From Metridium senile (Eukaryota; Cnidaria; Anthozoa; Actiniaria; Metridiidae): a stretch of DNA of 64,000 bases. Location of the stretch: positions 10,071,101 to 10,135,100 of the forward strand of contig OX459101.1 in NCBI GenBank assembly GCA_949775045.1, written 5' to 3'. A program made the translations under genes and the position numbers. Below, one piece after another: positions 5,580 through 58,678 of this stretch. Each line of letters begins with the position of its first letter. Position 1 is the stretch's first letter. Under the pieces are notes generated by a model. It had not been told where the DNA came from. It searched no databases and worked only from the letters and a program-made list of their open reading frames with translations.

Positions 5580-15342
<9,763 letters not shown>

Positions 15343-19410: not shown

Positions 19411-19446
19411 CTTAAAAACATAAAATAAAATATCACAACATGTATT

Positions 19447-19545
<99 letters not shown>

Positions 19546-24437: not shown

Positions 24438-24468
<31 letters not shown>

Positions 24469-26015: not shown

Positions 26016-26110
26016 ACAGGGATGGCTTTTGAGGGTTGAAATCAGCAATTTGCTACTGTTAAATTTAATGTTAAAACTAACCCTAAATATCTTGCTAAAG
26101 ACAAAGGTGG

Positions 26111-26815: not shown

Positions 26816-26930
26816 CTGTACCATTAAGGTATCAGGCTACCCATAGCGACTGATGTGCATTCAATTCCGGCATATAGCGCAAAATCTAAACCCCATTAAG
26901 GCATACATTTCCGAAATCTGAATATATACA

Positions 26931-27955
26931 GTATGTGTGTGCAATTCCGGACGGTTTTTAAATAAATTGCCATATCATTCGTTAAATGCTTTGTTTAGGA
27001 AATATATTTTCCCTGGAGATGAGGTAACTTCTGATAAAGATTTATATAAAGTATTGGTCAATTTTAGTGATTTTTGACAATGTTATGGATATATTTGTAA
27101 AGTAGTTTGAGTGGTGCAATTCCGGACAGTTGTGTGCAAAGCCGGACACTATTAAAGTAGGTTCTGTTTAATCAATTCTTTGAAGTTATTTCCTAATTTT
27201 CGAATGCTTATGATAGATTTTCCATTTCCACAGTCAAATTTGAGATTAAAGCATAAATTTGTGTTAATTAAATCATGAATTACGTTGCTTAATTAATACG
27301 TTTGAGCACTAAAGTATTTCACACATGAGTAATTGCTTTCGTGCGCTGGATTCTGCAAATGAATATAAATGTCCTATAAATGAATAGTGCATGGTGATTA
27401 AACTATCCAAAAGATAACTTTTGTTTGCAAAATCAACCTGCAGTTGAATTGTATATTTTTAAGCGACATTTTAACCTACAATTCAAAGTTACGGGTGATT
27501 GCTAATCTTGTTTATTTTATCGTCCGGAATTGCACATACCTTAGTGGATTTTAGTAGTATTTCTAAAACCGTCTCCTACACTTATTTAAAAATATTAAAA
27601 GCTCTTCTTTTCACACAAGATAAAACATTGCAATTGAAAACGTACTAATTATTTTGGCGTTATCATTTGAATCTGCAGAAAAATCACCATTTTAAGTTTA
27701 ACATGTAATTCGGAGCGCGTTAAAAACGGACTTATTGCGAATTTGCATATTCATATGCGATGACAAATCGCTCTTTTTCCTAGCTGAAAATATCTCGATT
27801 GTCACAAAAACTTCTTATAAACAATAGAATACATACAAATGCTTAATTCTATAATGTTGTTTTCATTTTTAAACAAATTCGATCTCTTTTTTAACGCTTA
27901 AATGCCAAAGTGTCCGGATTTGCACACTGTCCGGATTTGTACACACATACTGTAG
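26931..27955. mobile_element. Mariner-like non-autonomous element, CAGTATGTGTG termini
   Basis: TA plus CAGTATGTGTGTGCAATTCC at the left and CACACATACTG plus TA at the right. Internal GGACAGTTGTGTGCAAAGCC-like subterminal repeats occur. About 1 kb, AT-rich, no transposase frame. TA flanks fit Tc1/mariner target choice. Confidence 0.72.
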
Positions 27956-28111
27956 TCTATTCCTTACTATTTCATTGTAAATAAACCCAAGTTTCAATGT
28001 TTCATATAGGTCTGTTCACAAAGTTCCATGTCAGTCGGAGATTACAAGATAGATGTTACTTGTAACCGATTTTTGATCAATTATCACGTTATTCTGTTAT
28101 ACGTTCCTTAA

Positions 28112-28465
28112 GTTAAAAGAGCTCTTGTTCTTCAGTACTGCGACCAACAAAAGCTTCATTCCTGGAAGGCTGTGAACGTTGGAAGTCATCGAGGAAAGAT
28201 ATTATTTTCTTTTGGTTTTGAGATTTCTCGGCCGTAATTTTAAGTAGCTAGACCGAGTTCATCTTCAATCAGTGATTTTGCCACTTCGGAACAGTTCTTA
28301 AAATGCCCCTAATAAATCAACCTTTTTGAGATAACCGGGATCGTGATGCCGTTCTTTTAATCAGCGAGAATTATTGCTGCTTCATCTTCGTTCAAGCTCT
28401 CAGTGAAATTCCTGAACTCCTTATCTAACGCAGGAGATATCTGCACAACTAGCTACTGGTGGCAT
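28112..28465 (-). pseudogene. Dead 5' fragment of a gene D NB-ARC exon
   Basis: The minus strand matches the first ~115 codons of exon 1 of genes B and C (MPP, VQISPALDKEF, NFTESLNEDEAAII, then the region before the P-loop). A 7-bp insertion separates the start from VQIS, a one-base deletion shifts frame at the ADLKERH position, and a CAA-to-TAA change gives a stop in the GTFQELF segment. Similarity ends before the P-loop. It sits upstream of gene D in the right orientation, so it is most simply the lost 5' end of gene D. Confidence 0.82.
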
Positions 28466-28843
28466 CGTAGACCAAAACGAAACTGCAGACTAAGCGTGAT
28501 AGAGACAATATTTTGTCTAAGTTATCTACAACAACGAGCTCGAGGCCATTCGTTGCTTCCGCTTTGGCACAAGCACAGGCAGCCCAAGGAATGCACTTTT
28601 ACAGTAGAGACATGTGAGGAAAAAAATCGATATTTTTTATTAAAATAAATGTGAACATATTTCAATCCTGTGTTCTTGTTAAACTTATTTGGTGTCATTC
28701 TGGGTGGTTTTTGAACGTTTTAGAGCATTTTTCCCTAATTTTTGCCCACCTGTACTTTTAAAAATATGGAAAGGCTGGTCACTCGTGATCGAGATCGCTT
28801 GTCTTCGATGGTCGAAAAAATCATTTTAATCCTTCCTTTGCCT

Positions 28844-33239: not shown

Positions 33240-36200
33240 CTTAGGTGGAATCCCAAGATGAATCGCATCGACAGTGAGTTCGCCAATAACATTTTTAGTT
33301 TTTTCCTCCGTGTCATAGTAAAAAGCTATAATGAGCTTGTCTTCACTAGCACCCTGATATATCTTTTTCTTTTTGCATTTTAACTCTTCATAGCAAGGTT
33401 TATCTCCGTTAAGCCTTCAAAACAAGATTATGTACTATTTAAAAAACGAGCAGCAGTGTTTTATCAGGTATAAAATCCCGAGGGCGAAGCCCAATGATAA
33501 AACACGTGCTGCGAGTTTTTTGAATGACTTAAAAAACTCAGTAGTAATTCATGACCATTTTGTCCAATATCGATGAAACAAGGAAAAAGGAAGGTTGTTT
33601 GCATTTGGGAATTCATGTAAAGTAACAATAGAGGAATGCTAACCAATTTGAATGTTAACAAACTTGATGACATTTCGTTGCAAACTTTTCAACGATTGAT
33701 TGAGTAGTATAATGGCTTAAAGCGCGGATAAAACCAAGCAGAAGGTCTCGGTTCGAGTAAGTAAATTATTAAGTCTGATGTTTACTCGTCAGTAGAGATG
33801 GGGGATTGGAGGGGGGAGGGTACTATCTGAATTATGGACATGAAGCATTATATAATGACGCATGTGCCATTATATAATGCTTCATGTTCATTTGCATTCA
33901 TCTGTTCTTCTATTCTACACTATAATCCCTCCGCGTTTCAAACGTAGATTATGCGATATACAATGCTTTCCTTGTGACCAGAGAGGAGCATCGGATTGGA
34001 CAAAATGGTCATGAATTATTAATGATTTGTTTAGTTAAAGATATAGTATTCGTTTATTATATAATGAAACAATATATCGATACCATTTTGAATGACTGTT
34101 AAGCTGTTCTGAACTTTATTACTAGTCCCTCATACTTGTGATAACACAATTGTGTTTCAAGGTGAGATGGATAACTTGTGAATAGACCTCTTTACCTCCG
34201 TATGCAAATTGCCCTTTTCAGACCACGTGACATTCCCTTGAGAATTGTTCTTTTATGATGAACGATATGAACGTGTTATATCATTTACATCTAAAATACT
34301 ATGAAAATCACTAGTGATTAAATGTCAGTTGAAAATGTGGCCTTGGGGGGGTGTTTTGTTTTGTACCACATGACCAATTTTGAGCAAAATGATTGGCCAG
34401 AAGCGATCACATGCTACAAAAACGAGACAGAATTTTAAACAAGGATTTTACCACTCTAGTGATTTCGATAGTAATCAATTCCCAAGGGTAGCATCACGTG
34501 ATCTGAAATGGGACAACAAACAAGGAACTTAAAGAGGTTAATATCTGGTTAGTGGTTGGATTGTTGTGAGTTGTTTAGGTGAGTTTGTTAGTAAGTCAGT
34601 TGAATTGTAGGGTTGTGAATAAGTAGGTTGATTGCTTGTATGGATAGATTGCTTGTAAGATTGGCGTTTTTGAACAGAATGGACAAATTGTCCGTAAATT
34701 TGTTAATCTAATGTGAATTCAACAAATTCAGACAACGTTTTCGTCTCAAATGGTGTTCGTCCCGTTTCCACTTTTCGTTTGTTTATTGACTGATGGGATG
34801 TGTGGATGGTAGTATAGAGTGCTGGTCTGGCTTTGTTGATCGGATATTGGGTTGGTAGGGCTATTAGCTAGTAATGACAAGATTGTAGGCTGCTTGGCTG
34901 GTCATGTTGTTGTCGGTTGGATTGTGAATGAGTTGGTTGGTAGTTTTTTGATAGGTGGTTGTTAAGGTAGTTCGGGCGTAATGGATTCCTTCGTTAGATC
35001 TTTTTGAAACTTTTATGTAAAAAGAGCAAACTAAATAAAGTTCAAAACTAAAATTAAAATAATGGGTCACGGTACTGACTCGTTTCGGAGATAAGGGCGT
35101 TAGACTGGGCCCATTTTGGTCATTTTTTGTGACAAAAATTGTCGGGATTTGAAAAAAAAAACAACCCTATTTATTATATTTTCCCGATAAAAATCTTTTT
35201 AACAAGCATTTGCAAAAGGCACTTTCCTAACAAACATATTATTTGCCATGTTTTACTCAAGAAAATCCTTTTGGCAAAAAACTACTGCGAAAAGTAAGAG
35301 CATGTCGAGAACTTTAATGCAAAAAAACTTTAAAATAAAGGCTGGGTCCCGAACTACCTTAATGAGTTTATTTGTGGTGGAAGAGGGGAGAAAAGTGTTC
35401 ACAAGTAATCAGCAAAACTTACGTAAGCTTTACGCTTTTTCCATGTATCTCGAAACCACCTTGTACCATTGTCAAGACTGTAGCATTTGGATACATGTCG
35501 ACAGTGATTCGCGCTAATTCTTCGTAGTTTGTTGGCACTAAAGAACAAGTTGCTAAAAATAAACAAACTAGAACAAAAATGTATACAACAGACTGAACTT
35601 ACAGCCTCTACAGTCTCTATAATCTGTGTGTGTGTGGGGGGGGGGGGGGGGGGGGGGGGTATTGTTAGCAATCTTTGCATACTATTACCTAACACATGTC
35701 TCACATCGTTGGCCATAACCAAGAGAATTGTCGAGCAATCTTTACGGGGAGCGAGGCCCTTGAATATGTACGCTAAAACAATAACTTGTTTGGGTCCAGC
35801 TTTCAAGCGATTGTACATATCAGATGCATATAACATTAATGAAAATGATTCTGCTTTGTTCAACCTTAAAAACAAAAAAATAATATCACTAGTAAGTATT
35901 GTGTCAAAAATGATGATTTCAATGTGGATGGGGATGACAAGCTAGCAAACATCACACAACATCAACCAACCAACCAAGCAGCTTGCAAACCAATGCAACA
36001 ATGGATTGATTGATGGATAAAAAAAATGTCTCAAAATCAAAATGAAATGAACCATTTTTTGGTCGCGATGCAAAGATTTCGGCTATAAAAGTCTTAGTTG
36101 AATTTCATCAATCACGTCAGGTCAGTATGTAAGCACAATATTGAATTGACCATATGAAAGCTATCAAAAACAAAACCACCTACTTACTTGATTAGACTTT

Positions 36201-36286
36201 CAATTGCTGGTCCAATTGCTGGTTTGATAGATTGTTCTAAATGATGTCCCAGATGAACGTCTGTACCACTACATATTAACCACAAC
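33240..36286 (-). CDS. Gene B UPA exons, including an extra exon shared with gene D
   Basis: Exons 36286-36188 (LWLICSGTDVHLGHHLEQSI), 35864-35689 (RLKAGPKQVIVLAYIFKGLA, LLVMANDVRHVL), 35537-35423 (NATVLTMVQGGFEIDGKSVK-like) and 33414-33240 (EDKLIIAFYYDTEEKTKN, AIHLGIPPK). The first has no counterpart in genes A and C, where the HFS exon joins directly to the next one. Its phase (1 in, 2 out) allows insertion or skipping without a frame change, so alternative splicing is possible. The 2-kb intron before the last exon contains a copy of a flanking repeat block also seen near 15.5 and 29.7 kb. Confidence 0.7.
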
Positions 36287-39200
36287 CTTAAAAACACAAA
36301 ATGATATGACTAATAAGTTTGCCAGCCAGCCAGCCTGGCTTAAGACTAGTTTTTCTCAGCGATAGTTTTAATTGAATAAGCCATATGTAACCAAACAGAA
36401 GACAAAAACCTTTAACATATTAAATAGAGTTAACTCATTAAAATATACATACTTGGAAAAGTGCCTCACTCGAAGCTCTATCGTTGATTTTTTTTCAACG
36501 TATTCTACTGTTTCAGTAATTTCCTTCCACTCTATACCCTCGTGGCGCAGCACATGAACTTGTCCCGCAACCCTTTTATGTCCCGCGGGACAAATAGCAG
36601 GATTAGGTAAAGTTAATAAAACGTCTTCAGTGAAAGCTGTTTGTTCAAAGCCATCGACTACGACTATTGGAGAAACGTGTACGTTCGGTAAGTCCATTGG
36701 TATTACATCAGGTATTACATCAGGCATTGGAAGGACCTAAAAATTAAAAAAATGGAAAAGTTATATATAATCAATTGTTATATAGCTCATCATTTTGATT
36801 ATATAACGAGCATTCTCATTGGTTGATAGATGCTCACGTAATACTAGTTAAATCTAACTGTATCCCGACCGGGATACAAGTACCAAGCGCAATGAATAAA
36901 AATTCAAATTTTCTTAATAGACTTGTCTAAAATGATATAACAAAACGCTTAATGACTGATCCCTCGGGAAACCAGTTAGTTTTGTTTCCCTCGAATCTCA
37001 ATGTTTCCCTCGGCCGGAGCCTCGGGTCTCGGGAAACAACCAGTTAGTTTTGTTTCCCTCGAATCTCAATGTTTCCCTCGGCCGGAGCCTCGGGTCTCGG
37101 GAAACAAAACTAACTATTTCCCTCGGGACCAGTCATTAAGTGTATAATGTAGGCTACAGAACAGTAATATAATGGTATGCATACTGTGAAGTATAAGTAA
37201 AAAGTAAGTACGCAAGTAAGTAAATAAGCAAGTAAGTAAGTCTATTTATGAAAACAATTTTGTTTTGTACGAACCCTCAACGATCCTTTTGTCGATTTGT
37301 CAACAGTTCCTGCAGGAAATCGGAGTGTGACGTCATGACACACCGATGACCTTACTACACACCCGCTGACCGGGACCTCAAATGTATCCGTGATGAGCCT
37401 GGTAACTACTGTTAAAGCAGTCAGTTTGGTCATCTGCACTTGCATAAAACTTGATCTAGACTTGGTTGAAGCGGAAGATTCTTTTATGTCTGGAATGAAA
37501 TCAAGCAAAAAATATAACTGAAAATAGAATGGTTTATTGGTCAAATTTAACTTGAAAGAAGACGAAGAGTTTTTAGTTTTATCGTGTGAATGAAATAATA
37601 TGAAAACCTAAAGTTTATTGTAGTTTTTAAGTTTTACTTTCCTTTCCTTAATCTCCTATTTCTCTATTTTCCCTGGTTTCTATATTTCTCCTTTAATTTA
37701 TTTTTTGCTTTTTTATACTCTGTAGTTTCATGAACTCATAAAGTACTCTTATTGATCAGTAGTAGACTTTGCCGAAATTAATAAAGAAATATAATTTAAA
37801 AAAATAGTGAATAAAAAAAAAAAAAAATACTAACTAAACAAATGGAAATAATAATAAAAAGAAAAGTAAATAGAGAACTAATCAAGCAAATAAGTGAAAA
37901 GGAAAACAAATAAACACCTTCCACTTTTTCCCATGTGTTTGTACTCTCGTTGAAAACCATAGCAACGGTTTCATAGTGAGCTGTTCGTGTAGGGCCATAA
38001 TGCAGGAGTGTGGCAACAACTGGCTTTTTAAAAACCACATTAGCCGGCTCGAATTGAATTATAGAGCTAACAACACCATCCAGTTCCCTAGCAGGGGAGG
38101 GTAAGGTATCTTTGGACAACTGTTTAACTGTTAAGTTAGTTTTCTCGTTCACAGCATCAGGAGTAACTTGAAGGTGAAGACCAGCACTTGAGAAATCGTA
38201 GGATCCACCATTTTCATCTCTGCGTTAGAAGGATAATTAATTCATCAACTATACATTGTAAGAAACAAACAATACAAACAAACAAAAACATGCATCTTAT
38301 ATTACGCATGCTCGTTGGATTCAATACGGGAGCCACGACTCGAAACTTTATTAGTGGATTATAACGGGAGATTTTTCTCAAAAACGTTAATTGAATTTAA
38401 TCAATCACATGGCGCCAATATTTTGACGGAGTGATGTTGGGTTGAAAGCTGTTTTTAAAAAACTCCAGCCACATTATACTTACAAGGAAAATGTTTGTTC
38501 TTGTTGCTGCTGAGGCTGATAATGCTCCTCCTCCAGATCATCCTGCTGCGCCTGTTGTTGGTGTTGTTCCAGCAACTCTTGTTCTTGTTGTTCTTGTTCT
38601 TGTTGGTGCTCATCCTGCTGTTGAACATGTTGTTGTTCCTGTTGCAACAAGAAATTATGCAGGAACAAATCAATTGAAATGGTAAAAAATCCAAGTGATG
38701 CAAATATTATTGTAAAACCTATTAGTTTTAATTCATGAGCAAATTACAACACAAAATCATGTTCGTGAAAAGTAATATGTTGACACACTCATCTTGTGTA
38801 CAGTGGTGATATTGTGTCAATCATTTCTGAGGATCCCGAGGATGATTTTATACATTGTGTCATCTTTATAAATTCTCGAACAACATCCCCGCCCTTTTAA
38901 AAGTAAGAGTTCTCACGCAACACAACCCTTAGCTTGTTTTACAAATTCCATATTCCATTTCTCACCTTTAGTTGTTTTATTCTAGGTCTGTATTCTTGAA
39001 GTTTTTTGTTGTCATTGCACGTTTTGCACATATTTTCGAGTCGGTCACAAATACCCACTAACATAGCACTATGATTTCCTATTGGCAATAACTCTTCCAT
39101 CTTAAATGAAGCTTCGTAGCTCAGTAAAGCAGCAGGATAATATTTTCTGCATTCGTTTATGACTCCCATGAGATAAAGAATTCTTACAGTTTCAGGGTGA

Positions 39201-41924
39201 TCACCAAGTAGTTTATTTCTAAGCTCGTAACATTTTTCAGCACAAACCAATGCTTCGTCATACCTTTCAAGCACGATAAGACTATTTGACAAGTTTCTGT
39301 TAAAAGTTGAAGTGCTGAGTGTATCAACTAAACCGAGGTCTTCATTCAATCGTATGGCTTCCTTCAAACATAAAACTGCTTTTTCATAATGATAATAATA
39401 ATCGTTTTGTTTTCCTTTTTCCTTGTCCCCAAGTTTTTGATAAGCTTGAGAGAGTTGGTTATAACATGTAGGAAGTTCGATGTGTTTTTCAATCCCATAG
39501 TTCAATGTCAACTTCATTTGCAGTGCCTTGATATAATACCCTTTTGCTTTTTCAGAATGTCCAAGCTCCATGTAGCAATTACCAATGCCGTTTAGTGTCT
39601 TGGCAGTCATGATATGGTTCCCATAGTTATTCTGATGGATTTCCAATGCATCTTTGTAATTTTGGAGAGCCTTCTTCAGCAACTGAAAATTTACATCTTG
39701 ACCTCTATTTAAATAAACACTTTGCATGTAGTTTAGCTTCCCTTTACAGTAATGAAGTAAACCTTTGACAACAGCAAGCCGATAACACGGCCGTCCAATA
39801 TACACTACAGTTCTGTAATCCTGAAAGCATACTTCAGCACGATGTAGTATATCTGATGGTACTGTCCCTTCTATCTCGGCTACCTGAATATATTCCCAGC
39901 ATCTTATATAAGCACTAGTTCGTAGGTCTCCTTGAGAACAAATTAGAGTAACATCAAATTATGAAAAATATACATAAAAATAATCAAATACTGAAGATAA
40001 AAATGAAGATGATGCAGTGCATGATCATGATGATCATGATGATGACATGATGATGTATTTTACGATGATGATTTATGATGATGATGGTGACGATTATAGT
40101 GGTAAGGACACATGATTATGTAAATGATAGTGGTGATCAAGATGATGATTATTCATAATGATGATAATGATAATACATGCATATATGATGGTGGTGGTGA
40201 CGATGTACTTTAATATACACTGCAACACACTAGTACTACATTAAATATAAATGTAAATAAACATAATGATAGCTAGTGGTACCTTTTTGCTCAAGAGCAT
40301 CTGCCCAGGTCTTGAATAATGCCTTCCTTTCCTTGATGCTTTTTAAATATTCTAGTAGTATTGTAACACGTGGAATTCTTTCATGAGACTGAATGAGTCT
40401 TACCAAAAGCTCTTCTTTGCGTAAAGTTAATTGAAGTGCTACTTCAAAATTGAATTTCTCTTCCTGAATTTCTTGAGAAATGCCTGCAAAATCTTTGTCT
40501 AACTTATCAGCCAGTGAAAGCAGTTTTTCAACAAAATGGTGGCCAAACATCAATTCTGCTCTACTATACGCTTCCTGGTATTCTGTGAACTTCACTTTCA
40601 GGTAAGATGCTGCAAATTCTTTAAACAAACTGTGAACGTCGTATTCTGTTTTCCCCTCATCAGTCACAACTTTTGTAATCACCCGATGATTGGTTAGGTA
40701 CTCCAGATCTAACTCACCATCATAATCTGATTTCAACTCAGCAATTTTTTTTGTTTCCGATGCAGAAAAATACTTTGGGAAAACGCAAACTTTTACAGCA
40801 AGTTTCTTAAGGTTGTCTGTTGGAATTGACTGGAATATAGCTCCACTTATGAGATACTTATCCGGTACTCCCATCTCTATCTGTGTGTCAATCTGCTGTA
40901 AAAGTTGAACTGGAGTTAAAAAGCCATTTCTCAACATTTGCTCTGCACCCTCAAGAAAGAAGGGGATGTTCTGGCAGTATTCAGCAATTCTGGACAGTGC
41001 TGCGTCTTCATTAACCTCAGTGAAATCTTCACCATAAAAATCAGACTTTGACTTTCTACAAATGAACTCCTTAGAGGCTGGAATCGGTAGTGGTTTAACG
41101 CAATGATTTCTGATTGAGCTAACAGGAATTTCAGACAATGAAGTGAGGATAATTTTGAGCATTCCATTTTTGCACGCTTCTGATTTCGTAATATCATTAA
41201 GGAATCTATTAAATTCATCTTTGTGATCTTCAATGATCTCGGCCTCGACATTATCAAAGACTAAGAAGATTTTTGACTTCGTGCACCTTTTTCTTAAGCA
41301 ATCCAATATTTGATTTCTTTCCACTTTACGAAGGCAAGTCTCGTCTTCCATTTCATTAACCTCGTTTCTGTTGTTACCAGTCATGCCTAACTGATAAAGG
41401 ATATATAAATATGCAGTGTCAATATCTTTCACTTCTCTCAAGTCAAAAGTTAACTCTTCCCAGGAATTATTTGCAAACTCTTTCGCTATTTCCTTAGCAA
41501 TTGTGGTTTTTCCAACTCCTGAAATCCCGTGCAAATTTATTCCATGGATATTTTGGTCAGATAATAACTTGAGGAGCTCTTGTTTATCATTGCTGCGAGC
41601 AACTAAAGCATCATTCCTGGAAGGCAGTGAACGTTGAAAGTTATCGAGGGAAGATATTATTTTATTTTTGTTCTGAGATTTCTTTGCCGTAATTCTAAGT
41701 ATATCAAGATCATTTTCAGTGATTTTGCCACTTCGGAACAGTTCTTGAAATGTCCCCAATAAATCAACCTCTTTGAGAGAATTGGGATCGTGATGCCGTT
41801 CTTTTAAATCAGCGAGAATTATTGCTGCTTCATCTTTGTTCAAGCTCTCAGTGAAATTCCTAAACTCCTTATCTAACGCAGGAGATATCTGCACAACTGG
41901 TGGCATCGTGGACTCCGTGACCAA
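33240..41924 (-). CDS. Gene B: DED-like/NB-ARC/TPR/Q-rich/ZU5-ZU5-UPA paralog without a visible caspase exon
   Basis: Ten exons join in phase: 41924-40283, 39930-38966, 38638-38484, 38219-37918, 37480-37275, 36736-36453, 36286-36188, 35864-35689, 35537-35423, 33414-33240, for 1373 codons. The P-loop GISGVGKTT and the Walker B stretch IFLVFDNVE are intact. ZU5-2 ends ELRVRHFS. Relative to gene C it has an extra 99-bp exon (36286-36188) inside UPA and a 12-bp in-frame repeat giving PDVIPDVIPMD. The last exon ends in phase 0 at a good donor (AAG/GTAAGA), but no microexon or caspase exon could be found between it and the next gene remnant. Retaining that intron would add about 37 residues and stop. 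It may be a regulator lacking protease, or its terminal exon lies elsewhere. Confidence 0.78.
35636..35659. repeat. Poly-G run in gene B intron
   Basis: More than twenty consecutive G after GTGTGTGTG. The gene B UPA exon at 35689 starts just beyond, so exact length may be assembly-sensitive. Confidence 0.9.
36453..38219 (-). CDS. Gene B exons 4-6: tandem ZU5 domains ending in His-Phe-Ser
   Basis: Exons 38219-37918, 37480-37275 and 36736-36453. ZU5-1 contains GGSYDFSSAGLHL and ARELDGVVSSIIQFEPANVV. ZU5-2 contains SGCVVRSSVCHDVTLRFPAG, VDGFEQTAFTEDVLLTLPNP and ends ELRVRHFS (Ser about 1184). The exon 5 donor is again AGG/GTTCGT, followed 5 bases later by a second GT that would shift the frame into a stop. 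Confidence 0.8.
36948..37140. mobile_element. MITE with an internal 68-bp direct repeat
   Basis: CTTAATGACTGATCCCTCGG and its inverse bracket two tandem copies of a 68-bp unit (CCAGTTAGTTTTGTTTCCCT to CGGGTCTCGGGAAACAA). Intron of gene B. Confidence 0.8.
38484..38638 (-). CDS. Gene B exon 3: short Gln-rich linker
   Basis: 51 codons plus two bases (EQQHVQQQDEH, then QEQELLEQHQQQAQ and EEEHYQPQQQQEQTFSL), starting after TTGCAACAG and ending TT/GTAAGT. It is about half the length of the gene C exon and under a fifth of gene A's, showing repeat-number change in the linker. Phase 0 in and phase 2 out match C and A. Confidence 0.72.
38966..39930 (-). CDS. Gene B exon 2: TPR array
   Basis: 321 codons plus two bases. 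The open frame runs from CTCAAG/GAGACC at 39930 through LNGIGNCYMELGHSEKAKGY, CYNQLSQAYQKLGDKEKGKQ and HPETVRILYLMGVINECRKY to an AAG/GTGAGA donor. A reading that starts at an internal GTG near 39805 would miss the first 42 residues. A segment present in gene C (ERFSFKQLLFGLKSS) is absent, so the array is slightly shorter. Confidence 0.83.
40283..41924 (-). CDS. Gene B exon 1: DED-like domain plus NB-ARC and winged helix
   Basis: 547 codons plus one base, closely similar to gene C exon 1. It starts MVTEST before the MPPVVQISPALDKEF shared with C, so translation could begin at either Met. The P-loop is at about 133-141. The DVHSLFKEF MHD-like motif is kept. It lacks the short duplicated NNVLTSLFEIP stretch that gene C carries after its KIILTSL strand. 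The 5' flank (about 41925-42080) is recognisably similar to that of gene C (58679-58830) and likely holds the shared 5' untranslated region and promoter. Confidence 0.87.
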
Positions 41925-48580: not shown

Positions 48581-48690
<110 letters not shown>

Positions 48691-49093: not shown

Positions 49094-50091
49094 TTATGTT
49101 TGCTTCTGCTGCTCCGGTGTAAAGTAAATTTCTTTTGTAAGAGATGATGTAGATACGCAAACCTGGATCTTTCTTTGAATTACAACTCTCTTGACCTTAG
49201 TTAACATGCTCACAATATCCATACTAGTGTAATTCTCTTGAAACACTTCGCACAAATGTTGGATAAAAATTGAGCCAGACATTTCATCTCTAAATGCTTC
49301 TTGTCCTTGCGAACATGGATAGGCTATTAGCATTTCAGAATCTCGCAGAATAGCATCCTCCGAAGAAATTCCTTTCCCATTGCCTGCATTTGAATCGATT
49401 GTTGATTTACTCCTGTTTTTTTCAGCTTCCTGTTTTGAAGGTTGATGAGGTCCTGGATCCTGTTTTGATGTCCTTTCATTTGACATACTAGCAGCACTTA
49501 CACCAATAGAAGTCCGTCTTTCTGAACATTCTGATTTGGCGAGTTGATCGTGTTCTGGAGTCGACTTTGATACAAATTCTTCTGACATGTTACCCGCACT
49601 TTCTTCATGTGAATGCTTTTTAAATGAAGCTTTCTGTTCCTTAATGCTCACCTCGATGCTTTCAGTTTCGTTTTTGGTATATATGCGACATGCTTGGAAA
49701 AATAGTAGCTTTGGTTTTCCAAGAAAGCTGTCTTTAATTATGTTTGTTATTTCACTTTCCTTGATTATCTCCCCATCAATGTCAAAAACACCGTCTGACT
49801 CTCCATGACTCATAACGCATACAGCACAACAGTCATATTTAGTTGCCTCTCCTACTTTTGTTTTCAGAGAGTCAAGTATATGACTTTTTGTCTTGTTCCG
49901 GATCAAATTCAATTTAAAATTCAATTTATGGAACGTGTTCATAAGTACTTGGACATCATTCGTAGATCCTTTTCGTTCAGGAAGCTCATTCACTTCTCTA
50001 TTATGATCTTTAGTCACAGAGTGGAATGTCTCGATTTCAATAACAATAAGCACTCCATTCTTTACGAAAAAAGCATCTTTGGTGTTTAGGT
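49094..50091 (-). CDS. Gene C exon 11: C-terminal caspase domain
   Basis: Encodes residues 1403-1734 and the stop. The p20-like part has PERKGSTNDVQVL (matching the Arg-x-Gly-x-x-x-Asp S1-pocket region), the catalytic His in VCVMSHGES (His1498) and the catalytic Cys in KPKLLFFQACR (Cys1537). The p10-like part has LRDSEMLIAYPC, AFRDEMSGSIFIQHLCEVF (Arg in the place of the SWR Arg) and MDIVSMLTKV. Both halves keep the key residues, so it should be catalytically competent. A Ser/Lys-rich linker of about 115 residues between the halves, with acidic sites such as TIDS, is far longer than in gene A. It may be where interdomain cleavage occurs. Confidence 0.9.
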
Positions 50092-52743
50092 CTAAAAAAC
50101 ACAAATTGAAATGTGAACCTCAGGCTACGCATCTTCACCAAAACATAAAGCTGCAGTGTTAATAGCCTGCGTAGCCTGGCTCTCTTGGGGAAAGGGGGAG
50201 AGGGGCGGGGAGTGGGTTTTGGGGGCGGGGGAGAAGGAAGGGAGAGCCTGCCCGCAAGGCTGTCTTATTTAGTTAACCGCCCACTACTTAAAATAGCGCA
50301 CCGGAAGTAAGGGCTTACAAGAACTTCTCAGCTTGATACTAACTGGCCTTGTTTGTACGTTGGTAGTTTAACTTTGAATACGCCATTTCTTGTGAAAACA
50401 ATTACCCTCATAGAAAATCTAACATTCAAAAAACGACATGGGATAATTGCTTTTAATTCAAGTAAAAATAAAGTCAGGTTTTACGAGCGACTTATAGAAC
50501 ACAGAGACGGTTGTAATTCGAACCTTGGCATAATCAACGGCTGCATGTGATACAACAATAAACCAGTTCGAATCATTCACCAAGAAAGCTGATAAGTCCG
50601 ATGTTTCATCTTCAAATGATAACTATATTATTCCACTCTAGCTTGGAACAAAGTGTGGAAATAAATGTAGCTTAGATTGAGGAACATTGAAAGAGTTTCA
50701 GCTCGTCGAGAAATCTCGCTGGACCTAATATCATAACAGCATACCGCTTCATCGGATAGTTCGGCTGTCGTCAGGCCAAAAGAATTTACGTTACTTAATT
50801 GAAAGTTGAGTAATACTCGACGTTCACTACCAAAACTATATATAAACATTTACCATGTTTACAAGCAAAGAAGCTGAATGAAAGTGTGTTCTGGTTTTCG
50901 TCATGACCTATCCCAATATATGTCAATCATTTGTCAAGAATGAGCCAATCAGCGTTTACGGTCGCCAGCGACCGTAAGCATGTAAAATACATGGCCTTGC
51001 GGGCAGGCCCTCCTTTCCTTCTCTTCCCCACCCCTCCCCTCCTCTCCCCAATCCCTCCGCCTCTCTCCCAAATCCCCCAGGGCCAGCTATGCAGGCTACA
51101 GTGTTAATAATAACTAAGAACAGAGTATCACCAGGTAATTATGTAAACCATATGGTAAATGGATTACCAGCTATGAAAAATTAATGGCAAAAGGTAACTT
51201 TTCCTTTTATACATTATCTTACCGACAGTTTCTCTTTCACTTTCCTCAGTCTGTGGGTAAAAATTGAAAATTCGGATTTTAATGGAAAACTGACATAATA
51301 TTTAACCCCCCAAAAAATAACTTTAACCCTTTGACTCCTACAGTTCCCGAAACCGCCCGTAAAATACGATCCTGCTTTTAATAAATTGCAAATTTCTTAA
51401 CTCAAGCAAATCAAATTTACCCCGCCGTTTGGTTGATAAAGCAAAAGTTCTTCAAATTTTCATAGCAAATCTTGCAGTCACAAGAACCAGCAATTGTAGC
51501 ACAAAAACTTTATTTAAAGTTCAGCAAAGTCAAAAATCACCAGCCAGCCGTTTATTTCTTACCTGAGGTGCACGTGGAAGCCCGAGTTGAATCGCATGGA
51601 CAGTGAGTTCGGCAATAAGATTGTTAGTTTGTTCCTTCGTGTCATAGTAAAACGCTATGATGAGCTTGTCTTCGCTACCACCATGACAAATTTTCTTTTT
51701 TAATATTAACTCTTTATAGCAAGGTTGATCTTCTTTAAGCCTTCAAAACAAGATTATGTTAATGATACAGTATTCGTTTAATATATAGTGACAAGAAATG
51801 TCACACTAGAGGACAGAAAAAATGTCCTTAAATTTGTTAATTTAATGTCAGACAACGTTTTCGTCTCAAATGGTGTTCTTCCCGTTTCCACACCAGAGAA
51901 CTTGTCCCGTAATAAGACAATTTTTGTCCATCCAGACGATTGGTCCGCCTTCTTGTGTATACAAAAAGCTATTAGTTGTACATTGCGAGTATTAGCAAAA
52001 CTTACCTAAGCTTTATGCTATTTCCATCTATCTCGAACCCCCCTCGTACGATTGTCAAGGCTGTAGCATTTGGATACATGTAGACATCTGCAGTGTTTCG
52101 CGATACTTCTTCATAGGCTGTTGGTACTAAAAAAAGTTGTTAAAAATAGAGATTTATCAAATAGTCTTAATAACCTGGGTGCGGGTGTGTCAGTTCTCGG
52201 TGGGTCAGTTGATAGCAATATTTACATACTATTACCTGCCACCTGTCTCACATCGTTGGCCATAACCAAGAGAATTTTCAAGAACTCTTTACAAGGAATG
52301 AAGTTCTTGAGTTTGTACGCCAAATAAATAACTTGCATTTGTCCATATTTCAACATTTCGTAAAGACAAAGGACTGCTGGCATTGTTGCTAAGCCTATTC
52401 CAGCACACAACCAAATCCTTGAAAACACAATATAGTCATTGTAAATCATCACAAATAAGTATTGGCCAAAATAATCAAAATCACATAATACTGTAATGAT
52501 GATATCAATGAGGATGGTAAATGATGACAACGAACCAAACAACCAACCGACTAGCCAAGCAACCACCTAGCCAAAAGCAACCTAACCAGCCAACACCAAC
52601 CTTCCAATACCACCAAAAAAGCAAGCAAGACCGCAGGCAATTATTCTGTCAACACCAGCCTGCCAACCAACCAACCATCCAACCACGCAAAGAACCAAAG
52701 AACCAGCCAACACCAACACCATCCAGCCATCCAGCACCGACCT

Positions 52744-52831
<88 letters not shown>

Positions 52832-55800
52832 CAATCAATCAATCAATCAATCAATCAGTCAACCAACCAACCAACCACTATCTTTCTCTAATCTGTAGGA
52901 ATACAATGATATAATAATCCACAGCAGGAGACAAATAGCTAATAGACCCCTTCACAGGTCCCTGCTCTATCTTAAATGCATGTTAGCCTTGCCTCGAAGC
53001 GAGCTTGAAATGATAGATACCTTTTAACACCTTGCTGGACAATTATTCACATCTCTCTATCATTGCAAGCTCAACGTTTGTCTTGTTTCAATGCAAAACC
53101 CGGCCGGCTACATCTCAAGATGGCGCAGGGAACTGTGAAGGGGAATATTGATTAATTTATCATCATCATCATCAACTTATAACAACAAACATACTTGGAA
53201 AAATGCTTGACTCGAAGCTCTATCGTTGATGTTTTTTCAACGTATTCTACTGTTTCAGTAATATCCTTCCACTCTATACCCTCGTGGCGCAGCACATGAA
53301 CTTGTCCCGCAACCCTTTCACGTCCCGTGGGACAAATAGCAGGATTAGGTAAAGTTAGTAAAACGTGTTCAACAATAGCTGTTTGTTCCAAGCCATCGAC
53401 TACGACTATTGGAGAAAATTGTACGTTCGGTATGTCCATTGGTATTACATCAGGCATTGGAAGAACCTTAAAATTGATTAAAAAAATCAGACCTTGTTAT
53501 ATAACATGTTATAGATACAGAACAAGAATATACAATACAGAACAAGAATACATATGATGCATCCCTTTAAGTAAGTAAGTACATGAGTACGTTTTACAAG
53601 CATGTAAGTAAGTCATACGTAAGTAGGTAAGTAAGTAAGTATTTAATAACAATAATAATAAATAACGATAAAATAATAATTTAGTAAGTAGGTAAGTAAT
53701 TAGGTAAGTAAGTAATTTAAATAACAATAATAAATCATGAAGAGATAATAAGTTAGTAAGAACGTAAGTATGTAAGTACGCAAGTACGTAAATAAGCAAG
53801 TAATTAAGTAAGTATATTTATGAAAACAATTTTGTTTTTTACGAACCCTCAACGATCCTTTTGTCGATTTGTCTACAGCTCCAGCAGGAAATCGGAGTGT
53901 GACGTCATGACACACCGACGATCTGACTTCACACCCACTGACCGGGACCTCAAATGTATCCGTGATGAGCCTAGTAACTACTGTTAAAGCAGTCAGTTTG
54001 GTAAGCTGCACTTGTATAGAACTTGATGTAGAATGTTTTGAAGAGGAAGATTCTTTTATGGAATGAAATCAAACAAAAAACATGACTGAAAATGGTTTAT
54101 TGGTCAAATTTAACGTGAAAGAAGACGAAGAGTTTTATCTTGTGAATGACATAAACTGTATTTGTTTCAAGCGGTAGGTTCTTATATTATACAAAAAAAA
54201 ATGTCTGAACAAATTTTTTGATTGCAGTCCAATTAGATTGTAAGGAGCCTTCAAATTGTTTCTAGGGTTTGATTGTAGTTATTTGTACATGTAGTGGTTA
54301 TGAAGCTCCCCAAAAATATTCTCAGTATAGATTCTACATGGTCTCAGCTGATGAAGGAACAAAACAAAACAAAACAATTTCAAGTGCTGCAGCTTATTTT
54401 ATAACTGATTTTACCTTTTGGCAAATTAGAAATTATCCTCATTTCTCTCGTTTACCTTGTATTCTTTCCCATGTGTTTGTACTCCCGTTGAAAGCCATAG
54501 CAACGTTTACATAGTGAGCTGTTCGTGTTGGACCATAATGCAGAAGTGTGGCAACAACTGGCTTTTCAAAAACCAAATTAGCCGGCTCGAATTGAATTAT
54601 AGAGCTAACAACACCATCCAGTTCCCTAGCAGGGGAGGGTAAGGTATCTTTGGACAACTGTTTAACTGTTAAGTTAGTTTTCTCGTCCACAGCATCAGGA
54701 GGAAATAGAAGGTGCAGACTAGCACTTGAGAAATCGTAGGACCCACCATTTTCATCTCTGCGTTAGAAGGGGAATTAATTCATCAACTGTACATTGTTAG
54801 AACAAAAACGTTTTGACACTCATCTATGAATGATGCATTCAAAAGCTTTACAATGTCTTTTTATTGGTATTGTATTTTCTTATCAAAAAGGGCTTTTTCA
54901 AGTTTGCACATAACTTACGTGCTTTTATAATATGCATCGTCATCTTATGTATAATATGCATCTTATGTAGTATGCATGCTCGTTCGATTCAATACGGGAG
55001 CCACGACTCAAAACTGGACTATAACGGGAGATTTTTCACATGGCCCCAATATTTTTAAGGAGTGATGTCGGGTTGGCCATATGAAAGCTGTTTAAAACAC
55101 CAGCCACATTATACTTACAATGAAAATGTTTGTTCTTGTTGCTGCTGAGGCTGATACTGCTCCTCCTCCAGATCATTCTGCTGCGTCTGTTGTTGGTGTT
55201 GTTCCAGCAACTCTTGTTGTTGTTGGTGCTCATCCTGCTGTTCAACATGTTGCTGCGCCTGTTGTTGTTGTTGTTGTTGCAGCTCCAGCAACTCTTGTTC
55301 TTGTTGGTGTTCATCCTGCTGTTCAACAAGTTGTTGTTCCTGTTGTTGTCGTTGTTGCTCGTGTTGTTCTAGCAACTCTTGTTGTTGTTGGTGCTCATCC
55401 TGCAAAAAATAATAAATGGCAAAAGTAATATGTTGACACACCCATCTTCTGTGCAGTGGTGATATTGTGTCAATCATTCCTGAGGATCCCGAGGATGATT
55501 TTATACATTGCGTCATGTTTATAAATTGTCGACCAACACCCCGCCCTATTAAAAGTGAGAGTTCTCACGCAACACAACCCTTAGCTTGTTTTACAAATTC
55601 CATATTCCATTTCTCACCTTCAGTTGTTTTATCCTAGTTCTGTATTCTTGAAGTTGTTTCTTGTTATACTTTTTGCACATTTTTTCCAGTTGGTCACAAA
55701 TATCCACTAATCTAACGCTATGGTTTTCTATTGGTAATAACTCTTCCATCTGGAATGCAGCTTCATAGTTCAGTAAAGCAGCAAGAGAGTCTTTTCTCCA

Positions 55801-58678
55801 TTCATTTATGACTCCCATGAGATAAAGAACTCTTACTGTTTCAGGGTGATTACCAAGAAGTTTATTTCTAAGCTCGTAAGCTCGTTCAGCACAGCCCAGT
55901 GCTTCGTTGTGTTTTTCAAGCGGGATGAGAATATTCGCCAAATTTCTGTTAAACGTTGCAGTGCTGAGTGTATCGTCTAAACCGAGGTCTTTATTCAATT
56001 CTATGGCTTTCTTCACATTTGAAACTGCTTCTGTGTAGTAATGTTTTGCTTGAGAACTTTTCAAACCAAAAAGCAACTGTTTAAATGAAAATCTTTCGTT
56101 CTCTTTGTCCCCAAGCTTTTGATAAACTTGAGAGAGCTGGTTATAAAATGTAGGAATTTCGCTGTGTTGTTCACTCTCATTGGTCAGTTTCAACTTCATT
56201 TGCAGAGCCTCCATATAATACCCTTTTGCTTTTTCAGGATGTTCAAGCTCCATGTAGCAATTGCCAATGCCGTTGAGTGTCCTGACTGTCATGATATGGT
56301 CCCCATAGATATTCTGATGGATTGCCAATGCACCTTCATAATATTGGTGAAGAGTCTTCTCCAGCAACTTCGACTTTGCAGCTTTATCTTTTTTTAAATA
56401 AACACTTTTCATGTAGTTAAGCTTCCCTTTACAGTAAAGAAGCAAACCTTTTACAGCAGTAAACTGTTCAGGATTGAGGGATGCCTTGGGATCATGCAAG
56501 CATAGTTCAGCATGATGTAATATTTCCTCTGATGGCGCCGTCCCTTCAATATCGGCTAGCTGAATGGATTCCCAGCACCTCATATGAGCACTGGTTAGTA
56601 GGTCTCCTTGAGAACGAAGTAGAGCAACATGCAAAACAATATATATAAATTATCAAACTGCAATAATTGTTATAGAATAAAGATGAAATGAAGGTGCCTT
56701 TATTTATCCACGGTGTGTCCATTCAGGTCTAAATTACAAAAAAAAACAATACATTATCACGGTGATCATGATAATGACGACAACTTTGATGATATGTATT
56801 TATGATATGATGATTCATGATGATGATGGTGACGATATTATAGTGATAAGGATACATCATGATGTAAAAGATAGTGGTGATCAATATGATGATGATTATA
56901 CATAACGATGATGATGATAATGATGTTAATACATGGTGGTGGTGACGATGTACTTTGATATACACTGCAACACACTACCACTACATTAAATATAAATGTA
57001 AATAAACATAATGATAGCTGCATGGGGTACCTTTTTGTTCTAGTGCATCTGCCCAGGTCTTGAATAATGCCTTCCTTTCCTTGATGTTCTTTAAAGATTC
57101 TAGTAGTATTGTAACATGGCAAATTCTTTCATGAGACTGAAGAAGTTTTCCCAAAACTTCTTCTCTGCGGAAGGTTAATTGGAGTGCAACTTCAAAATTA
57201 ACTTTCTCTTTCTGAATTTCTCGAAACATCCCTGCAAAATCATTGTCTAACTGTTCAGCAAGTACAAGCAGTTTATTAACAAAGTGTTCCCCAAACTTCA
57301 ATTCTGCTCTTCGGTACGCTTCCTGGTATACTGTGAACTTTACTTTCAGGTACGATGCAACAAATTCCTTAAACAAACTGTGAACGTCGTATTCTGTTTT
57401 CCCGTCATTAGTCACGACTTTTGTAATCACCCGATGAGTGGTAAGGTACTTCAGATCTAACTGACCATCATAATCTGATTTCAACTCAGCAATTTTTGTA
57501 GCCTCTAGTGCCGAAAAAGACTTTTGGAAGACGCAAAGTTTTACAGCAAGTTTCTTTAGGTTGTCTGTAGAAATGGACTGGAATAAAGCTCCACTTATGA
57601 GATAATTGTCCGGCACTTCCTTCTCTTTCTGTGTCTCAATCTTCTGTAAAAGTTGAACTGCAGTGATGAAACCATTTCTCAACATTTGCTCTGCACCCTC
57701 AAGAAAGTAGGGAATTGTCCGGCAGTATTCAGCAATTCTGGACAGTGCTATGTCTTCTTCGTCAATCACAGTGAAAGCTTCACCGTAAAAATCAAGCTTT
57801 GACCTTCTACAAATGAACTCCTTAGAAGTCGAAATCGGTAGTGGTTGAACGCAATGATTTCTGACCGAGCTAGCGGGAATTTCAAATAATGAAGTGAGGA
57901 CATTATTTAATGAAGTGAGGATAATTTTGAGCATTCCAGTTTTGCACGCCTCTGATTCAGTAAGGGCATTTAGGAATCTGTTAAATTCATCTTTGTGACC
58001 TTCAATGATCTCTGCCTCGACATTATCAAAGAGTAAGAACATTTTTGACTCCGTGCACTTTTTTCTCAAACATTCCAATATTTGATTCCTTTCTACTGCT
58101 CGAAGGTAACTCTCATCTTTCATTTCTTGAGCGTTCCTAGAAATAGAAGTCATGCCTAACTGATAGAGGATATACAAATATGCAGTGCCAATATCTTTTA
58201 CTTCTCTCAAGTCAAAAATAAACTCTCTACATGATTCCTTTGCAAACTCTTTCGCAATTTCCTTTGCAATTGTGGTTTTTCCAACTCCTGAAATCCCGTG
58301 CAGATTTATTCCATGGATATTTTGGTCAGATAATAACTTGAGGAGCTCTTGTTTATCATTGCTGCGACCAACTAAAGCTTCATTCCTGGAAGGCAGTGAA
58401 CGTTGGAAGTTATCGAGGGAAGATATTATTTTATTTTTGTTCTGAGATTTCTTGGCCGTAATTCTAAGTAGACCGAGATCATTTTCAGTGATTTTGCCAC
58501 TTCGGAACAGTTCTTGAAATGTCCCCAATAAATCAACCTTTTTGAGAGAATATGGATCGTGATACTGTTCTTTTAAATCATCCAGAATTATTGCTGCTTC
58601 GTCTTCGGTCAAACTCGCAGTGAAATTCCTAAACTCCTTATCTAACGCAGGAGATATCTGCACAACTGGTGGCATCAT
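49094..58678 (-). CDS. Gene C: DED-like/NB-ARC/TPR/Q-rich/ZU5-ZU5-UPA/caspase fusion (complete copy)
   Basis: Eleven exons on the minus strand join into one open frame of 1734 codons plus stop: 58678-57031, 56606-55618, 55399-55119, 54757-54456, 54052-53847, 53466-53195, 52417-52236, 52126-52006, 51740-51563, 51250-51223, 50091-49094. Lengths sum to 5205 bp, divisible by three, and the phase matches at every junction. The ATG at 58678 is chosen because an in-frame TGA lies just upstream. Domain order: DED-like (about 1-95), NB-ARC with winged helix (about 100-440), linker, TPR array (about 550-880), Gln-rich coiled coil (880-972), ZU5 (973-1073), ZU5 (1090-1232), UPA (1233-1393), caspase (1403-1734). 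By family knowledge, NB-ARC is an ATP/ADP oligomerising switch, ZU5-ZU5-UPA is the PIDD/ankyrin module and caspase is a Cys protease. Inferred role: an intracellular sensor-protease for cell death or immunity. The exon 5 donor is weak (GTTCGT). No transcript evidence is available here. Confidence 0.85.
50163..51104. mobile_element. Inverted-repeat (foldback) element inside the last intron of gene C
   Basis: Two arms of about 100 bp, G-rich on the left (50163-50265) and complementary C-rich on the right (50988-51095), enclose about 720 bp without a convincing gene. The outer ends read GCCTGCGTAGCC and its inverse. A 10-11 bp direct repeat CAGTGTTAAT flanks the element (about 50153-50163 and 51099-51110) and looks like a target-site duplication. 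Gene A has no equivalent insert in its much shorter intron, so this arrived after the A/C split. Confidence 0.65.
51223..51250 (-). CDS. Gene C exon 10: 28-bp microexon linking UPA to caspase
   Basis: CCCACAG precedes and GTAAGATA follows a 28-bp segment encoding TEESERETV plus the first base of an Asp codon. It is required to reconcile phase: exon 9 ends in phase 0 while the caspase exon opens with two bases of a split codon. Gene A has a 16-bp microexon at the homologous place with the same donor (GTAAGATAATGTA). Two independent copies keeping phase is strong evidence that it is real. Confidence 0.8.
51563..52417 (-). CDS. Gene C exons 7-9: UPA-like domain
   Basis: Exons 52417-52236, 52126-52006 and 51740-51563 encode residues 1233-1393. 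Recognisable stretches are MLKYGQMQVIYLAYKLKN, FLKILLVMANDVRQ, GGFEIDGNSIKLR and EDKLIIAFYYDT. The alternation of short amphipathic strands, a Gly-Gly turn and a final strand set fits the UPA domain of UNC5, PIDD and ankyrin, which in PIDD packs on the ZU5 pair. The assignment rests on position directly after two ZU5 domains plus pattern, not on a profile search. All junction phases agree, and each exon has a counterpart in genes A, B and D. Confidence 0.72.
52743..52860. repeat. (ATCA)n microsatellite in gene C intron
   Basis: About 28 units of AATC type with a few CAA interruptions. Expanded relative to the homologous gene A tract (9366-9400). Confidence 0.9.
52945..53148. mobile_element. 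Hairpin element in gene C intron, shared with gene A
   Basis: Homolog of the element at 9464-9665, with the same outer and inner inverted pairs. Shared position shows insertion before genes A and C separated. Confidence 0.7.
53195..54757 (-). CDS. Gene C exons 4-6: tandem ZU5 domains ending in His-Phe-Ser
   Basis: Exons 54757-54456, 54052-53847 and 53466-53195. Exon 4 holds the first ZU5 (GGSYDFSSAGLHLLFPPDAV, then KDTLPSPARELDGVVSSIIQF). Exons 5 and 6 hold the second ZU5 (SGCEVRSSVCHDVTLRFPAG, then VLLTLPNPAICPTG and IEWKDITETVEYVE). Both begin with the ZU5 pattern of a strand, a Gly turn, then hydrophobic-FPxxAV/GAV. The second ends ELRVKHFS at residue 1232. HF-S is the autoproteolysis tripeptide of PIDD1 and UNC5CL, and it sits in the same place, at the end of ZU5 before UPA. 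A phase-2 junction at AA/GTATGT follows. No His-Phe-Ser closes the first ZU5. Confidence 0.82.
53566..53817. repeat. (TAAG)n-type degenerate microsatellite in gene C intron
   Basis: Counterpart of the gene A tract at 11220-11440, at the identical intron position just downstream of the weak AGG/GTTCGT donor. Confidence 0.8.
55119..55399 (-). CDS. Gene C exon 3: Gln/Glu-rich coiled-coil linker
   Basis: About 93 residues of imperfect repeats of DEHQQQQELLEQH and HVEQQ type, ending EEEQYQPQQQQEQTFSL. It starts in phase 0 after TTTTGCAG and ends with two bases of a Leu codon completed by exon 4. Composition and the heptad-like Leu spacing suggest a coiled-coil or amyloid-prone linker between the sensor half and the ZU5 half. 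The DNA itself is a CAA/CAG-rich minisatellite, so length is likely to vary between alleles and paralogs. Confidence 0.75.
55618..56606 (-). CDS. Gene C exon 2: TPR array
   Basis: This exon encodes residues 550-879, a series of helical pairs with TPR signatures such as LNGIGNCYMELEHPEKAKGY, TFYNQLSQVYQKLGDKE and RNLANILIPLEKHNEALGCA, then HPETVRVLYLMGVINEWR. Several repeats follow a spacing near 42 residues, like the kinesin-light-chain type. In NB-ARC proteins such repeats take the ligand-sensing or autoinhibitory place of LRR or WD40. The acceptor is CTCAAG before GAGACC. The donor is AAG before GTGAGA, well short of the exon's apparent stop, so the product continues into the Q-rich exon. 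The intron downstream is well conserved with gene B, including about 150 bp just past the donor. Confidence 0.85.
57031..58678 (-). CDS. Gene C exon 1: DED-like domain plus NB-ARC and winged helix
   Basis: This exon encodes residues 1-549. Residues about 10-95 look like a death-effector-type helical fold (VDLLGTFQELF, then SGKITENDLGLLRITAKKS). The P-loop GISGVGKTT lies at 128-136 and a Walker B stretch MFLLFDNVE at 213-221. A degenerate GLPL-like motif (CRTIPYFLEGAE) is near 319-330. An MHD-like VHS (DVHSLFKEF) near 431-439 closes the winged-helix region. This is the APAF1/plant R-protein type of STAND ATPase rather than NACHT. The exon ends in AAAAAG before GTACCC and leaves one base of a split Gly codon completed by exon 2. 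The N-terminal fold call is by pattern only; CARD or another death fold remains possible. Confidence 0.88.

Follow-up and report, generated by a model that had tools for sequence, protein, structure and literature searches.

Can one polypeptide sense a trigger, process itself and then act as the protease? Better-known animals divide sensor, release module and protease among several proteins that assemble, and the question is raised by a locus of the cnidarian Metridium senile at which a single gene, labelled c1, joins all three.

Gene model and tandem copies

The window is the whole stretch of DNA that was analysed, 64,000 nucleotides long (C7:10071101-10135100 of the species' own assembly), and c1 occupies positions 58678-49094 of its minus strand. 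The first-pass annotation had read eleven exons here, joined with consistent phase into 1734 codons; when the model was rebuilt independently, the coordinates, length and phase were all reproduced. The single frame comes from eleven GT-AG exons (GT-AG at 10/10 introns) with the following features:

57031..58678, minus strand: exon 1, predicted DED-like N-terminal helical domain (residues 1 to about 100) and NB-ARC NTPase (profile, predicted fold, paralogues)
55618..56606, minus strand: exon 2, TPR repeats (Pfam TPR_12, E 4.2e-20; splice sites conserved)
55119..55399, minus strand: exon 3, Gln/Glu-rich linker of 81-84-bp minisatellite origin (gene model, tandem repeat)
54456..54757, minus strand: exon 4, ZU5-1 (Pfam ZU5, E 6.4e-12; ankyrin profile alignment)
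53847..54052, minus strand: exon 5, end of ZU5-1 (KLT, by eye) and start of ZU5-2 (gene model; donor GTTCGT)
53195..53466, minus strand: exon 6, ZU5-2 with HFS at its end (gene model, ankyrin profile alignment)
53197..53205, minus strand: HFS, predicted self-cleavage motif of PIDD type, residues 1230-1232, cut between F1231 and S1232
52236..52417, minus strand: exon 7, UPA part 1 (gene model, ankyrin alignment)
52006..52126, minus strand: exon 8, UPA part 2 (the ankyrin alignment stops inside this exon)
51563..51740, minus strand: exon 9, UPA end (by position; beyond the ankyrin alignment)
51223..51250, minus strand: exon 10, 28-nt microexon between UPA and caspase (gene model)
49094..50091, minus strand: exon 11, caspase p20-linker-p10 and stop codon (Peptidase_C14 profile, catalytic residues)

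A tblastn search of the window with these exons found three further partial copies on the same strand as c1:

33240..41906, minus strand: c2, with exons 1 and 2, exons 4-9 and, by eye, a short exon 3; retains HFS
17269..28468, minus strand: c3, decayed; exons 4-9 and a fragment of exon 1 whose frame is broken; HFF for HFS
5580..13576, minus strand: c4, exons 3-11; HFS kept

Neither an exon 10 (searched down to 28.6 kb) nor a caspase exon was found downstream of c2, and no caspase exon was found for c3, so that only c1 and c4 have caspase exons in the window. The c4 caspase has an intact frame and is 56.5% identical to that of c1, and exons 1-2 of c4's own were not found in the window. The c4 microexon measures 16 nt vs 28 nt in c1, a difference of 12 nt that preserves the frame, with conserved splice sites. 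It was also observed that c2 (sensor, caspase not found) and c4 (caspase, sensor not found) lie on the same strand across window positions 41906-5580 with compatible exon phases, which makes one long transcript possible.

A simple matrix built from consensus values was used to score the donors against a background of the 518 GT in the region, and on this scale the ten c1 donors fall between the 84th and the 99.8th percentile. The weakest, that of exon 5 (AGG/GTTCGT), is kept as GTTCGT in c2, c3, c4 and c5, the last being a second complete gene just outside the window. Almost every splice site is conserved both in the window paralogues and in this second gene. The exceptions are the c4 donor of exon 7, found a few bases later and still in frame, and the starts of exon 7 in c2 and c3, which were placed by eye; this conservation argues that the joined model is not a product of chance. 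An alternative pairing of exons 5 and 6 (1744 aa) is disfavoured: ZU5-2 has a weak Pfam match at E 0.093 in the 1734 model and none in the 1744 model, and the longer version is impossible in c2, where an in-frame TAG directly precedes the equivalent exon-6 acceptor.

Elsewhere the window holds a 95-bp tandem repeat of 22.4 units (2555-4768), a 316-aa minus-strand open frame that looks by eye like a seven-helix receptor (62138-63088), and a minus-strand open frame beside an (ATT)n run that resembles, by eye, a retroelement-linked gene remnant (48164-48739). A scan of the window against Rfam found nothing that reached gathering scores.

The sensor half

The P-loop, earlier described as intact, is present as GISGVGKTT (residues 128-136, 58297-58271), and NB-ARC is recognised by Pfam at E 1.8e-5, with 24.6 bits against a cut-off of 23.5; the relatives c6, c7 and c9 (see below) reach 29.1, 24.3 and 33.4 bits. 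Exon 1 of c2 is 80% identical to that of c1, and exon 1 of c5 is 79% identical. Among the best 25 matches listed for residues 1-879 (E to 0.22) there is neither LRR nor WD40; NB-ARC and TPR are found instead, with TPR in the place of WD40.

The DED-like start proposed for the protein fared less evenly. Pfam gave no match to the N-terminal domain, DED included, at E up to 10 (a search in which weak matches can be filtered out), and Foldseek alone, run with the model of the domain, gave no E below 0.001, but the predicted fold lends moderate support to a possible DED-like domain. Nor did sequence comparison identify a DED: it yielded no convincing relative in the PDB, and the weak rows (E 0.24 or worse), which include bacterial toxin chains, are attributed to chance.

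The Gln/Glu-rich stretch that links TPR to ZU5 is encoded by the 81-84-bp minisatellite (window 55188-55403 and 12804-13540), of which c1 has 2.6 units and c4 has 8.7, so that the length of the linker may vary.

The ZU5-ZU5-UPA module

The ZU5-ZU5-UPA module that had been claimed downstream of the sensor was borne out by the profile searches, which did not reject ZU5: in addition to the Pfam match of exon 4, a profile built from four copies aligns co-linearly with the ZU5-ZU5-UPA of ankyrins (E 3.7e-8, profile positions 3-334 of 417). ZU5-2 and UPA are recognised by this profile against ankyrin structures, Pfam not rising above its cut-off for them, and by sequence the module has no PDB relatives other than ankyrins. 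The tandem ZU5 followed by UPA is present as in PIDD1, as judged by co-linearity with ankyrins, PIDD1 itself not being part of the alignment. A single-sequence PDB search for the UPA returned nothing above chance where the four-copy profile succeeded. There is no FIIND Pfam match in c1, though the F/S motif and the ZU5-UPA module are there.

The excerpted text of PMC3210808 places the PIDD cuts at HF/S behind each ZU5 and those of CARD8 and NLRP1 at SF/S, the serine of the site being essential in the latter two. In c1 the motif HFS closes ZU5-2 immediately before the UPA, and it is kept in c1, c2, c4, c5 and a copy on contig C11, while the decayed c3 has HFF. The equivalent place in ZU5-1 reads KLT, by eye, in the four window copies and c5; the likeness to the PIDD tandem module therefore stands for the motif of ZU5-2 but not for that of ZU5-1, and only a cut of the PIDD1-CC type is predicted. 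A histidine upstream of HFS (RHEG) could, by its spacing, match the histidine that is important in CARD8, and it is replaced by Q in the C11 copy and in c3. When the four copies are aligned, it is the UPA stretch right behind the predicted cut that looks most variable.

The caspase

The last exon was expected to encode a caspase with its His/Cys pair, and the profile search agrees, with a Peptidase_C14 match at Pfam E 1e-36 (127.2 bits against a cut-off of 21.4) and the catalytic His (SHGE, 49807-49805) and Cys (QACR, 49690-49688) aligned with those of caspase-3/-6. Arginines of the c1 caspase also align with those of caspase-3 and -6, and we take these to form the S1 pocket. The caspase is the sole match of the last exon, in which a C-terminal death domain was looked for; no C-terminal CARD was found either: at E up to 1, query proteins 2 and 3 matched nothing but ZU5 and Peptidase_C14.

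c1 and c4 share an Asp immediately ahead of p10 (ILRD/S) that c5 lacks, and it may be a processing site. The residue that follows QACR is G in the eight other caspases aligned and I, T and V in c1, c4 and c5, respectively. The Gln of QAC is Glu in c5 (EACR) and in the C11:4.13 Mb and C3:1.75 Mb copies (EACR/ETCR), a change that may alter the choice of substrate in these three copies.

A second complete gene and a dispersed family

The gene is not unique: c1 is one member of a tandem and dispersed family. When the genome was queried with exon 1, 10 matches came back, every one of them on contig C7. Among them is the second complete gene (c5, C7:10064175-10049516), in which ten exons form an open frame of 1548 codons with the same domain order and HFS kept. 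Aligned with c1, it is identical at 1074 of 1536 residues (70%). Exon 9 and the microexon are merged in c5, as they are in the C11 copy, and are followed by one phase-1 intron before the caspase.

The c1 caspase exon has at least 31 matches in the genome, and eight loci besides c1 show 48-60% caspase identity: c4 and c5 (C7), C11:4.13 Mb, and C3:1.75, 16.00, 16.10, 21.81 and 22.36 Mb. At 7 of the 9 family loci, on three contigs, the caspase exon is immediately preceded by UPA exons, and no UPA exon was found in the 1.5-kb flanks of the C3:16.00 and C3:16.10 Mb loci. Microexon-like sequence is present at eight of the nine, partly by eye, and is unmatched at C3:21.81. The C11 copy has ZU5-ZU5 with HFSK as well; a search of the 8 kb upstream of the C3:1.75 Mb copy turned up no further exon of the gene. 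The C3 copies at 21.8 and 22.4 Mb contain stops and were left out of the caspase tree and alignment, in which the seven remaining family caspases form one clade (support 1.00) against eight other caspases of the same genome, with His and Cys kept in all seven.

The same order in c5, the frame-preserving microexon in further copies and the adjacency of UPA and caspase at 7/9 loci strongly support, at the level of sequence, the original claim that sensor, ZU5-ZU5-UPA and caspase belong to one polypeptide.

Three observations lie beside this family. Upstream of the C11 ZU5-ZU5-UPA-caspase there is a 344-aa open frame (L052:546-1577), COR-like by eye and without a Pfam match at E 0.01, and the C11 module may sit behind a different sensor. 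At C1:3.98-4.71 Mb, 20 Peptidase_C14 matches, all on the minus strand, with open frames of 333-1081 aa and three with stops, constitute another expanded caspase-containing family. A pattern search of viral contigs picked out 62 stretches, none of which codes for a relative.

Sister genes without a caspase

Three distant relatives, c6 (C7:14.64 Mb), c7 and c8 (C7:8.73-8.76 Mb), have exons 1, 2, 4 and 5 in common with c1, and no caspase match was found near them; a further one, c9 (C7:11.24 Mb), shows 28% identity in exon 1. Downstream of c6-c8 and in the same orientation there are candidate exons: ZU5-2-like ones that end in RFCG or QFCG, not HFS, and further on UPA-like pieces (by eye), an exon without a Pfam or PDB profile match and a Death-domain-like exon. 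The Death matches (Pfam E 2.8e-4, 5e-4 and 1.1e-3) each stand just under the Pfam cut-off, and the PDB profile search of these exons is weak, its best death-domain row being Fas at E 0.27. Genes of this kind, with a Death-like exon and no nearby caspase match, suggest a possible exchange in which the enzyme took the place of an adaptor. On the simplest reading, the branch with the caspase would descend from a PIDD-like gene that carried an adaptor, a direction that we infer.

Divergence and selection

The dN/dS ratios for sensor exons, ZU5 and UPA are 0.44, 0.66 and 0.96 between c1 and c2; for ZU5, UPA and caspase they are 0.48, 0.68 and 0.75 between c1 and c4; for ZU5 and UPA they are 0.78 and 0.99 between c2 and c4; and for sensor, ZU5, UPA and caspase they are 0.49, 0.50, 1.00 and 0.59 between c1 and c5. 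The UPA is thus near 1 in three of four comparisons, and the caspase gives 0.57-0.75 in pairs with c1 (n=5) and 0.96-1.10 in pairs without it (n=4), so that relaxed constraint is possible. Together with the variable UPA stretch, these ratios would fit either relaxed constraint or conflict acting on a family of immune type. Synonymous distance between c1 and c2, c4 or c5 is uneven along the gene (ZU5 0.10-0.16, sensor 0.28-0.29, UPA 0.25-0.45, caspase 0.41-0.55), a pattern suggestive of gene conversion or of an exchange of exons.

A proposed mechanism and its alternatives

The reading that we favour, and hold to be slightly on the probable side, is that c1 is a self-cleaving sensor-protease that works by cutting, holding, releasing, clustering and cleaving. 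The DED-like/NB-ARC/TPR half would sense a trigger; ZU5-2 would cut itself at HF/S (1231/1232), in the fashion of PIDD, with the halves remaining bound; the opening of the sensor half by NB-ARC switching, or its removal, would free a C-terminal UPA-caspase piece of 503 residues; and the freed UPA domains would cluster, bringing the attached caspases into dimers that would process their linker and cleave targets in the cell. Neither an adaptor of the RAIDD/ASC type nor a separate procaspase would be needed, and c1 may be a self-contained death or immune effector, as the first reading had proposed. We infer the individual steps (self-cleavage, retention, release, UPA clustering and the activity of the protease) as well as the outcome, be it death or immunity. 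The sequence of steps is drawn by analogy with two findings: PIDD1-CC (UPA-DD), and not PIDD1-C, kills cells (excerpted in PMC11637483), and the UPA oligomerises the C-terminal pieces of CARD8/NLRP1 (excerpted in PMC7794386).

The release model is supported by the domain order and frame, c5, the co-linearity with ankyrins, the retention of HFS, the caspase residues, the seven UPA-caspase loci and the sister genes. Counted against it are the lack of HFS in ZU5-1, the replacement of G after QACR, the Gln to Glu change in three copies, the near-1 dN/dS, the loss of the RHEG His in C11 and c3, and the fact that no caspase exon was found for two of the four window copies. A broader proposal, for which we see the case as evenly balanced, is that a PIDD/NLRP1 release switch was turned into an autonomous weapon in an animal lineage, one that senses, self-cleaves and frees a self-clustering UPA-caspase without an adaptor; the family would have come from the exchange of a Death adaptor for a caspase in a PIDD-like NB-ARC protein, with tandem duplication and a fast-changing UPA after the cut.

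The main alternative is an apoptosome in one chain, in which the triggered NB-ARC half oligomerises and gathers its own caspases, the ZU5-ZU5-UPA serving as a rigid spacer and self-cleavage not being needed. An NB-ARC with an intact P-loop, a module whose only PDB relatives by sequence are scaffold proteins and a ZU5-1 without HFS would all suit it; however, the ZU5-2 HFS is kept in the four caspase-bearing copies that were read (c1, c4, c5, C11) and lost in the decayed c3, and we regard this alternative as unlikely. Rather less credible is a decaying or relaxed multigene family in which the caspase is no longer used: the broken c3, the two C3 copies with stops and the near-1 caspase and UPA ratios of several pairs point that way, but the frames of c1 and c5 run uninterrupted for 1734 and 1548 codons, sensor dN/dS is 0.44 and 0.49, the caspase stays at 0.57-0.75 in 5/5 comparisons with c1, and His/Cys are kept in the 7/7 members aligned (the two copies with stops not among them). 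That sensor-ZU5-UPA and caspase are normally separate products, of two genes or of alternative transcripts, with a joined frame that is merely possible, would accommodate c2 and c4, each with one half of the gene found, but is highly improbable in view of the open joined frame of c5, the 28 vs 16 nt microexon that preserves the frame between conserved splice sites, and the UPA exons that adjoin the caspase exon on three contigs.

Comparison with known systems

The self-cleaving sensor-protease reading can be set beside several known systems. APAF1/CED-4 likewise place an NB-ARC switch upstream of caspase activation; there, however, the caspase is a separate protein, and APAF1 has CARD and WD40 where c1 has a DED-like domain and TPR. 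Ankyrins (ZU5N-ZU5C-UPA-DD) are the best solved relatives of the c1 module by sequence, but they are scaffold proteins without HFS and with a death domain at the position of the caspase. To our knowledge, the well-known ZU5-UPA proteins (PIDD1, UNC5, ankyrins, NLRP1, CARD8) carry a death-fold adaptor after the UPA. Part of this set is treated in the excerpted text of PMC3210808.

PIDD1 resembles c1 in the ZU5-ZU5-UPA order, in the HFS after ZU5-2 and in the C-terminal UPA piece that would be freed next to caspase signalling in both. It differs in having LRRs before the module and a death domain after it (excerpted in PMC11637483), where c1 has NB-ARC-TPR and a caspase; PIDD1 works through RAIDD/caspase-2, whereas c1 carries the caspase itself and lacks the cut motif of ZU5-1. 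NLRP1/CARD8 (FIIND) offer an NTPase sensor (NLRP1), an F/S-type ZU5-UPA module, for which self-cleavage is predicted in c1, and a C-terminal effector piece; that piece is a CARD that recruits ASC or caspase-1 (accessible part of PMC7794386), in contrast with the two ZU5 and the covalent caspase of c1.

Cnidarian and sponge NACHT-ZU5 and TRADD-N-ZU5/UPA proteins join an NTPase or adaptor to ZU5, and no caspase is named after the UPA in the accessible parts of the sources (PMC8260672, PMC12909245, PMC8195603); the legend of a sponge NLR figure lists a caspase domain (CASc) at a place that the accessible part does not show (PMC12909245). A caspase after UPA was not found in the accessible parts of the open-licence literature on these domains in cnidarians and invertebrates (PMC8195603, PMC3482391, PMC11508797, PMC4083563, PMC6321704, PMC8260672, PMC12909245, PMC12314368, PMC2246300, PMC7586219, PMC11251625, PMC10192318), in keeping with the early remark, made without a search, that no described protein with exactly this domain order was known to its author.

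Read from its sequence, c1 is a variation on the logic of PIDD, NLRP1 and CARD8, and what sets it apart is the protease itself after the UPA. If this is true, a release module can drive an enzyme directly, and the gene would provide a simple natural system for testing whether clustering of the UPA is enough to activate a caspase. The presence of related genes with and without a caspase in one genome makes effector exchange testable, and the answer would bear on how the logic of the apoptosome, the PIDDosome and the inflammasome relate to one another.
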